A DNA stretch of 64,000 nt from Candidatus Aramenus sulfurataquae (GTDB taxonomy: Archaea; Thermoproteota; Thermoprotei_A; Sulfolobales; Sulfolobaceae). The number at the start of each line of letters is the position of its first letter. The first letter of the stretch is position 1. Of this stretch, positions 61,814 through 64,000 are shown piece by piece. The stretch lies in NCBI GenBank assembly GCA_000565255.1, contig ASRH01000006.1, forward strand, positions 1-64,000, written 5' to 3'. Below the pieces are notes generated by a model. That model was not told the origin of the DNA. It did no database searches and was given only the letters and a program-made list of their open reading frames with translations. Made by a program: the position numbers and the translations under genes.

Positions 61814-61822
61814 CTTTTTAAG
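61814..61822 (+). promoter_or_regulatory. TATA box of HerA-like gene
   Basis: CTTTTTAAG with centre about 28 nt before the ATG at 61846, pointing to a leaderless transcript that starts there. Confidence 0.5.
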
Positions 61823-61845: not shown

Positions 61846-63453
61846 ATGCTAGAAGGAGGGAAAACAGTAGGGATCGTCCTACAGAAAGGGGAGTCCAACT
61901 CAGTCAGCGCCATCATAGACCCCTCGGTGGAGGTGTCCAGCGGTAGGCTCTTTGTGGTGAAGGATGGAGGAAAGATCTCGCTTTGTAGGCTCGACAGCTT
62001 CGAGTACATAAACGAGTTTTACGACGAGAAAATACCCATACTTAGGTCTATGATAACGGAGGAGGAGTCTTTTGAACTGTTGAACATGAACACCGTTATA
62101 AAGGCCTCGCTCAGCATAATCAAGAGGTACAACCACTCCTCTTCACCGATGCCAGGCTCGTTAGTCAAGCTCCTCCCGGAGATAAGGGACGAGAAGGGGC
62201 TAATGGAGTTTTACGGCTTAAACGACCTGACGGGATACGTAAAGTACGGGCTCCTTGCAGGTTCCGACATTCCCCTGTTGCTGGACCTAAACTCAATAAC
62301 TATGCACGTGGGCATCTTTGGCGAGACCGGTAGCGGGAAGAGCTATAACATGAGGTACTTAATTTCGATCCTCTCGAACTTGGAGATAAGGGGGAAGAAG
62401 ACTGCTATACCCTTGATAGTCATAGATGCCAACGGGGACTATGCCGACTTTGTAGATCAGAATCACTCTCTGGTTAGTGGAGGGAGGAACTTCGTTAGGA
62501 AGTTCGTGATCAGAGACCCCTTGACGAGGAACGAGGCGAGGCTTACCATAGACTTGTCCCTTTTCACGCCTAAGGACTTAGCCGACTTCATAATTTCCCT
62601 CAAGTTCAGCGGAGAGACCACAAACTCTCTCCAGAGCAACCTCTTGGAGTTCATCCTCTCAAGGCACGATGTAAAGGAATATAACCTCATCTTGGGGACC
62701 GAGCAAGGCATTGAAATGCTCGAAAAGGAGCTGTCGGACTCATCGCTGAAGGACTTGGGCTTCAACTACAGCACTGTTAGGGCAGTGATTAGTGCCCTCG
62801 AGATATTCAAGAACAGGCTAGTGCAGAAGTATAAGCTAATAGATAGCTCTTCCAGCTTCAATGAGTCCACACTAGAGTTGCTCTGGAAAAACAAGGGCCT
62901 ACTCATCGTCGACTTCTCAGCAGATGGGTCCCCAGGAGTTGATATAGCTACGAAGCAACTAATTGTGAGCTATATCGCAAGGTCCCTCTTGAACTACTTG
63001 ACCAAGGCAAAGTACTCAGGGAATCAGAAGCTAATAGGCTTCGTCATAGAGGAGGCGCAGAACTATATTCCCTCAAATGATTACCCCGTGAACGCTAGCA
63101 TTACAAAGGACATCCTAGTCACCTTAGCGACTCAGGGAAGGAAGTTCGGCCTCTCCCTCTTTCTCGTCAGTCAGAGGCCAGCCTTCGTGGACAAGTACGT
63201 GCTCTCCATGCTGAACACCTTCTTCTTCCACAGGATATACCACGAGGATCTACGCTACGTGATGTCTGCCAGCGGTGGTCTGCCCGAGTCCTTGGCCAAG
63301 GCTATTCCCTCCCTGGACACGGGTTACGTGGTCGTCAACGGCCTCATGTCGGCGTTGAAGGTATCCGCGCTGGTGAGAATACCTTGGGATCCTAAGTTGG
63401 GATCATACGCTGGTTCCTTGGAAAGAGTTGATAGAGTACTATTAGAAGACTAA
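61846..63453 (+). CDS. HerA/VirB4-like DNA-translocase ATPase
   Basis: About 535 residues. HAS-barrel-like N-terminal part, Walker A GIFGETGSGKSYN (about 156-168), Walker B IGFVIEEAQNY (about 396), and a conserved VTLATQGRKFGLSLFLVSQR segment with the trans-acting Arg. No transmembrane helix is evident. Canonical HerA is normally encoded with nurA, mre11 and rad50, which are absent here, so this is a paralogue: perhaps a DNA pump such as CedB of the Ced import system, or another HerA-like protein. Its stop overlaps the next ATPase start (TAATG). Confidence 0.8.
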   Translation: MLEGGKTVGIVLQKGESNSVSAIIDPSVEVSSGRLFVVKDGGKISLCRLDSFEYINEFYDEKIPILRSMITEEESFELLNMNTVIKASLSIIKRYNHSSSPMPGSLVKLLPEIRDEKGLMEFYGLNDLTGYVKYGLLAGSDIPLLLDLNSITMHVGIFGETGSGKSYNMRYLISILSNLEIRGKKTAIPLIVIDANGDYADFVDQNHSLVSGGRNFVRKFVIRDPLTRNEARLTIDLSLFTPKDLADFIISLKFSGETTNSLQSNLLEFILSRHDVKEYNLILGTEQGIEMLEKELSDSSLKDLGFNYSTVRAVISALEIFKNRLVQKYKLIDSSSSFNESTLELLWKNKGLLIVDFSADGSPGVDIATKQLIVSYIARSLLNYLTKAKYSGNQKLIGFVIEEAQNYIPSNDYPVNASITKDILVTLATQGRKFGLSLFLVSQRPAFVDKYVLSMLNTFFFHRIYHEDLRYVMSASGGLPESLAKAIPSLDTGYVVVNGLMSALKVSALVRIPWDPKLGSYAGSLERVDRVLLED

Positions 63454-64000
63454 TGAGTAAAATGTGCCAGTTTAGGCTAAGTGAGACTTCAGCTGACCCA
63501 GAAAGCATCTTTAAGCTCTACAAGTGCGTGGTCTCCAAGACCAAGCACGTTGACAGACTCAGGTTCTTTAGGCAGGTAGGCGAGGAGATAGCGAGGGTTA
63601 AATCGCCGAGGGAGAGCCCCGAAATTATAGCTCTAGTCGCGGACTGGGGGCAGGGTAAGACGACCTTCCTGAGCATAGTAAGCGAGGCCCTAAATGAGGT
63701 GGGAAAGAGGTTTGCTAAGCTAAACTTCGTGGACGTCTTGAAGAACTTGAAGGTTCTCGAGGAGGTTAAGCTCAACGACGTAGTGCTAATAGACGAGGTG
63801 GAGAGCGCTATAGATTTTGCAACCACAAAGTACTCCGATCAGATTAAGGAATTCTGGCTTTTCGTTAAGGAACTGGCCAACTCCAAGGGGAACAAGGTGG
63901 TCTACTTGTCCATGACCCCCAGCGCTTACTCAAAGCTTTTCTCCAATATCCTACCGTCAATGTTCCCAGAGACGTATTACTCCATCCTCCAAAGGATGAA
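63453..64000 (+). CDS. P-loop ATPase, 3' end beyond window
   Basis: Starts with the ATG at 63453 and stays open to the window edge (182 codons). Walker A is VADWGQGKTTFLS near residue 65-74, Walker B VVLIDEVESAID near residue 110, then KVVYLSMTPSAYSKLF with a sensor-1-like Ser/Thr. The form WGQGKTT is typical of AAA-type ATPases in conflict or conjugation loci, though no specific family can be named. Overlapping start and stop with the HerA-like gene make a two-component ATP-driven machine likely. Confidence 0.75.
   Translation, partial: MSKMCQFRLSETSADPESIFKLYKCVVSKTKHVDRLRFFRQVGEEIARVKSPRESPEIIALVADWGQGKTTFLSIVSEALNEVGKRFAKLNFVDVLKNLKVLEEVKLNDVVLIDEVESAIDFATTKYSDQIKEFWLFVKELANSKGNKVVYLSMTPSAYSKLFSNILPSMFPETYYSILQRM

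Follow-up and report, generated by a model that had tools for sequence, protein, structure and literature searches.

A HerA–NurA operon carrying an AAA+ ATPase and a coiled-coil protein in Sulfolobaceae

The window, by which we mean the whole analysed stretch of 64,000 nucleotides, covers positions 1–64000 of contig C6 in a 1.80 Mb draft genome (G000), which its relatives place in Sulfolobaceae; the window ends inside the second gene of an operon of four co-oriented, overlapping genes, here called A to D (Table 1). Positions above 64000 belong to the same contig, outside the window, and there an RsmB/F-type methyltransferase gene follows D, as judged from open reading frames and Pfam. Genes A and B share a single base in TAATG by their ORF coordinates, which place the ATG of B at 63453 and confirm the overlap of two ATPase genes described in an earlier, sequence-only reading of the window; the WGQGKTT protein of that reading is B, where this motif forms the Walker A. 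Upstream of A, the TTTTTAAG box is identical in the sister genome G011, comparable T/A-rich stretches precede A in other genera, and its placement would fit a leaderless archaeal transcript. The locus had seemed strange because nurA appeared to be absent along with the other canonical HerA partners. This apparent absence arises because the window edge cuts the operon before D, which is a NurA gene, whereas mre11 and rad50 are indeed missing from the operon. A standard HerA operon downstream would have refuted the sequence-only reading; the sequence beyond the window shows none, since mre11 and rad50 are missing and herA is separated from nurA by two further genes.

Table 1 Features of the A–D locus on contig C6 and further HerA–NurA loci of the same genome.
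Feature	Coordinates	Strand	Description
Putative TATA-like box	61815..61822	+	TTTTTAAG; 24–31 bases upstream of the gene A ATG
Gene A	61846..63453	+	HerA-like ATPase, 535 aa; PF01935; ATG at 61846, stop ends at 63453
Gene B	63453..66506	+	AAA+ ATPase with long helical tail, 1017 aa; first 182 codons (63453..64000) inside the window
Gene C	66481–67152	same orientation as A, B and D	Coiled coil, 223 aa; outside the window
Gene D	67149–68204	same orientation as A–C	NurA-family nuclease, 351 aa; PF09376; outside the window
C/D-box sRNA-like element	68175–68223		ATGATGA ... TCCTAGTCCA-CTGA; abuts the 3′ end of D
HerA–NurA locus L056	C3:32.4–38.7k		
HerA–NurA locus L057	C1:194–197k		
HerA–NurA locus L058	C2:196.5–199.4k		
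HerA–NurA locus L059	C1:232–235k		

Gene A matches the HerA central domain (PF01935, DUF87) at E 2.7e-34 (119.7 bits against a cut-off of 23.2), in agreement with its initial description as HerA-like. In an alignment with the standard HerA of the same genome, the protein retains Walker A (GETGSGKS), Walker B (VIEEAQ), SQRP and then RIYHED, and hhalign matches the two at 99.8% over 441 columns. The HAS-barrel model (PF09378) reaches the N terminus of A below its cut-off (E 0.011, 16.2 bits against 25.2), and a PADLOC DndH model match is restricted to residues 159–217 (E 5.6e-5). A falls short of both the standard HerA equivalog (NF040937, 84.6 bits against a cut-off of 800) and the NCBIfam CedD model (61.4 bits against 600). 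In a tree of paralogues, A groups weakly with standard HerA (support 0.75), apart from longer HerA-like proteins with hydrophobic starts. The comparison with the import ATPase CedB, raised in the sequence-only reading, loses its footing on these two results, and CedB is not the closest relative of A.

The predicted structure of B (AlphaFold, mean pLDDT 81.3, pTM 0.58) comprises an AAA+ core at about residues 5–260, followed by a middle part of mixed alpha/beta structure and a long helical tail in which two short strands lie at 773–786. Foldseek places Hda proteins first (5x06_E, E 2.4e-4). In VIA, p97 (9mpq_F, Z 12.7, rmsd 3.6, 214 aligned) ties with ORC (7tjf_A, Z 12.1, rmsd 3.4, 220 aligned). 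Hda, DnaA and ORC are all among the structural matches. On this model the core is an AAA+ domain, probably of ORC/Hda type, although p97-type chains score equally. WGxGK, DEVE and R181 are invariant in all 18 B proteins of the family sample described below, and R181 directly precedes the last core strand (182–186). By sequence, B finds mainly coiled-coil look-alikes and two weak P-loop matches among solved structures.

The product of gene C is predicted to be entirely helical (AlphaFold, pLDDT 85.2), and no fold match to it is significant: the best E is 0.43, and the best VIA hit (Z 8.6, rmsd 2.0, 65 aligned) is a designed coil. The assignment of C therefore stops at coiled coil. In the two genomes of genus g7, C is a diverged coil of 268 residues that hhalign relates to the other C proteins at 38% over 113 columns. 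Gene D matches NurA (PF09376) at E 2.2e-15 (57.3 bits, with the cut-off at 21), and each of the 18 D orthologues does so at E 0.01 or better, although sequence searches with D against solved structures returned no match. D60, E123 and D138, which we take to be the acidic active-site residues of NurA, are invariant in all 18 D proteins and align with the genome's standard NurA. Above cut-off, the Pfam scan of A–D contains no restriction-endonuclease, SIR2 or DUF4297 domain, no csm6/CARF domain in B or C, and no membrane, pilus, relaxase or CedA/CedA1-type family.

The distribution of the operon was followed in 31 Sulfolobaceae genomes from eleven genera. A is present in 18 of these and B in the identical 18, with neither found alone and the two always adjacent, a pairing beyond chance; the suggestion of a DNA-moving or defence machine in the sequence-only reading holds up as well. 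The order A–B–C–D is intact in all 18, with spacings between −26 and +6 bases and no broken frame. By genus, the operon occurs in every genome of five genera (2 + 7 + 3 + 4 + 2) and in none of the 13 genomes of the six others. One of the operon-bearing relatives is Sulfolobus sp. UBA167. A search for B over 197 genomes of the order identified these 18, and the B profile run over 398 genomes across the phylum gave 16 matches, 11 of them full-length and all in Sulfolobaceae. The five others are short P-loop pieces, which we excluded as members together with two weak matches on the coil from the order search. Within the phylum sample, full-length relatives were found in Sulfolobaceae alone. No relatives of B were found on the plasmids or viral contigs searched, and none of A in the phages searched.

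The standard HerA is found in all 31 genomes, including the 13 that lack A–D, and G000 itself carries a standard herA–mre11–rad50–nurA operon on another contig. This coexistence, with the absence of A–D from 13 of 31 genomes, argues for an accessory character. Five NurA genes are present in G000, each near a HerA-like gene: one in the standard operon, one in A–D and three in further pairs. In G059 (g5), standard HerA is matched from residue 164 onward, with a TGA inside the match (G059:C1:1510562-1511548), which may mean that the copy is truncated, that the match itself has an end effect or that the sequence contains an error.

Estimates of dN/dS between G000 and G011 point to purifying selection on each of the four genes (A 0.06, B 0.16, C 0.29, D 0.11; standard HerA 0.075). 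Between genera g1, g4, g5 and g6, A retains 60–66% identity and standard HerA 59–64%, with B at 35–45%, D at 33–44% and C at 21–27%; by these alignments B, C and D diverge much faster than HerA, and C is fast-evolving. The histories of the two HerA proteins conflict. In the standard HerA tree, which holds 17 of the 18 rows with G059 left out, g6 pairs with g7 (72% identity), whereas the operon trees pair g1 with g6 and set g7 far off (operon HerA 44% between g6 and g7). The chromosomal site of the operon is common to g4 and g5 and differs from it, and from one another, in g1, g6 and g7. Because of this conflict, judged against a single reference gene tree, and the differing sites, the operon has probably moved as a unit, and the pattern would speak for occasional block transfer followed by long residence within genera. 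No clean empty site was found for the g1 operon, whose flanking genes lie far apart in other genera.

The C/D-box sRNA-like element at the end of the operon offers a further view of its surroundings. The guide TCCTAGTCCA before CTGA is strictly kept across Sulfolobaceae (also at loci L143–L159, L100, L101 and L111), and in both g1 and g4 the element begins where D is about to end, so that the two overlap at the 3′ side of D. Where no operon adjoins it, the element lies next to RsmB/F in g2 and next to an SPFH gene in g3, g6 and g11. Its neighbours are thus RsmB/F in g1 and g2 and SPFH in g3, g4, g6 and g11. Since the operon abuts the same sRNA gene in two chromosomal contexts, we suggest that this gene served as a homology or target for insertion, or that it moved with the operon. 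We weighed whether the element is an RNA component of the system and set this aside, because it is also present in genomes that lack the operon. Rfam gave below-threshold matches to it and nothing above thresholds.

The scanned flanks of the operon consist mainly of housekeeping genes, with no recognisable defence island. In two genomes, PADLOC matched three of ten flanking proteins (a mad3-like ATPase, a ParA-like protein and a second HerA); these belong to general ATPase families and prove little. In G108, a different HerA-like protein of 659 residues adjoins the operon convergently (L054:13997-15976) and matches the PADLOC model HerA ‘Type III coevolved’ at E 3e-56. A thermopsin-family gene adjoins the operon in g7 (L053:12054-13910, L054:5331-7187) and lies two genes off in g4 and g5 (r13), possibly by coincidence. 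In G146, of genus g4, about 60 residues from the ATPase core of another B-like copy survive as a lone, decayed remnant (L055:8044-8253, on G146:C2). This remnant is about equally close to several lineages and adjoins a dehydrogenase gene, like one flanking the L058 HerA–NurA pair in G000.

We then compared A–D with known systems that contain HerA. Like the standard operon, A–D encodes HerA and NurA together with their catalytic motifs kept; in place of mre11 and rad50 it carries the large AAA+ ATPase and the coiled-coil protein. HerA/FtsK capture systems combine an ORC/Cdc6 AAA+ protein with HerA/FtsK, an REase and a wHTH protein (PMC10853773); HerA/FtsK with ORC/Cdc6 AAA+ proteins, nucleases and rapidly evolving proteins is read as an anti-invader assembly (PMC10853773, PMC12839542). 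A–D resembles these in uniting HerA, a possibly ORC-like AAA+ protein, a nuclease and a fast-evolving protein in one operon, and differs in that its nuclease is NurA with no REase fold and that C is assigned as a coiled coil and not as a wHTH. In the BREX-related capture (BRC) systems, too, HerA occurs alongside a nuclease and a large protein of the AAA+ class; their further components (DUF6079/BrxC, PglZ, a STAND NTPase and DUF4007) were not found in the A–D operon (PMC12839542). The terms ‘NurA’ and ‘Sulfolob’ are absent from the main texts of both PMC10853773 and PMC12839542.

Other relatives combine HerA with different partners. The nurA–csm6–herA clusters of Thermoproteales, related archaea, are also a second HerA–NurA pair with a gene added in between; there the addition is csm6 next to CRISPR arrays, and in A–D it is an AAA+ ATPase and a coil (PMC3396285). 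SIR2–HerA and HerA–DUF4297, which act in bacterial defence, pair HerA with an effector enzyme as A–D does, with effector domains that differ, neither SIR2 nor DUF4297 being found in A–D (PMC12977600). DndFGH and PbeABCD are multi-subunit, ATPase-based systems against foreign DNA, and DndH has a HerA/FtsK domain, as outlined in PMC10853773; the subunits of A–D differ from theirs. PbeABCD was dropped as a model, ‘HerA’ and ‘NurA’ being absent from the main text of PMC6459918. The open-access literature searched gave no description of the A–D operon, and an earlier description elsewhere is possible. A–D is not the standard repair operon, BREX/BRC, nurA–csm6–herA or SIR2–HerA; it is a HerA–NurA pair with two new subunits.

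In the HerA–NurA machines already established, six HerA subunits form a pump for duplex DNA and feed it to a dimer of NurA for degradation. By analogy, A–D would form a single multi-subunit DNA-processing machine in which an A hexamer pumps duplex DNA into a dimer of D for degradation. B and C, because they are constantly present between herA and nurA, are likely subunits or regulators of this machine. The AAA+ core and long helical arm of B may recognise the target or load the machine there and so license it, and C may serve as a fast-evolving adaptor between B and the HerA–NurA core. The target, less surely, would be invading viral or plasmid DNA, which would make A–D an archaeal, NurA-armed form of the HerA/FtsK capture type with no DNA-modification partner in its operon.

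We thus favour, at a probability of roughly one half, a stand-alone HerA–NurA capture machine with B as loader or sensor and C as adaptor, likely directed against foreign DNA. The role of HerA–NurA is itself disputed between end resection for repair and degradation of foreign DNA, and a 2026 study proposes that it may be antiviral (PMC12977600). We place defence first and repair second because of this proposal and the published parallels to capture systems. Several observations run against defence: the mostly housekeeping flanks, a genus-wide presence steadier than that of most defence systems, a HerA subunit that evolves as slowly as standard HerA, and the lack of any copy of B on the plasmids and viral contigs searched. 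A more specific form of the defensive reading is less probable. It describes a self-contained immune machine of Sulfolobaceae in which a dedicated, long-armed AAA+ protein of ORC type would place a HerA–NurA degradosome on invading DNA. As no DNA modification would mark self, the fast-evolving subunits B and C would discriminate by sensing an end, the structure or the replication state of the DNA.

A second chromosomal complex for repair or end processing, our tentative second choice, would instead use the HerA–NurA paralogue with B and C in place of Mre11–Rad50, loading on broken or stalled DNA. In its favour, A is conserved from genus to genus to the same degree as the standard protein (60–66% versus 60–63% for standard HerA, comparing g1 with g4, g5 and g6), both site and neighbours are kept across two genera, and the flanks are housekeeping genes; an ATPase, a coiled coil and a nuclease may also echo Rad50–Mre11 logic. 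Against it stand the 13 genomes that retain standard HerA and do without the operon, the tree conflict and changes of site, and the AAA+ fold of B, which is not that of an ABC/Rad50-type ATPase. The signs of movement would suit a machine for DNA transfer, or one derived from a mobile element and serving segregation, conjugation or import, with B loading HerA for DNA export or uptake. HerA-like pumps act in Ced/Ted import, and HerA–NurA has been proposed to make the single strand for transfer (PMC9905601). This reading is unlikely given the missing membrane, pilus and relaxase families in the Pfam scan of A–D, the CedD score far below cut-off and the absence of plasmid, viral or phage relatives of B and A from the searches above.

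Least probable, and in our view very improbable, is a reduced BREX-type system of the BREX-related capture kind, in which B would be a true BrxC/BrxD. PF10923 (BrxC_BrxD) does match four of the 18 B proteins, with a best E of 4.1e-8 at locus L053, a match that lies above the Pfam cut-off; the NCBIfam BrxD model (best 1.5e-6) and the PADLOC BrxD model each match two of 18. The layout of B, with its AAA+ core, mixed alpha/beta region, long helical tail and small two-strand piece, also resembles BrxC as described in PMC12839542. The PF10923 matches that we inspected in detail, however, span solely the P-loop region (residues 33–90). An hhalign comparison of the B family with eight BrxC proteins aligned 24 Walker-A columns at a probability of 3% and nothing behind the AAA+ core, where the positive controls HerA and NurA reached 99.8% and 97.5%. 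PglZ, PglX, BrxA, BrxB, DUF4007 and STAND partners are not among the four operon genes by ORFs and Pfam. No BrxC or REase chain is among the VIA matches listed for B, a result that carries no weight on absence.

A–D looks like an undescribed, probably defensive variant of the known HerA–nuclease machines. The operon would be present in Saccharolobus, whereas Sulfolobus acidocaldarius and Metallosphaera sedula would lack it. Gene deletion is routine in Saccharolobus, and if these species assignments hold, loss and transfer of the operon would both be directly testable in laboratory strains. Studies of helicase loading would also gain a useful point of comparison, a DNA-translocating pump that is paired with a dedicated AAA+ protein. 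For the disputed role of HerA–NurA, A–D offers a natural second version, set apart from mre11 and rad50 and built on another ATPase; it is retained in several genera and dispensed with in the rest.
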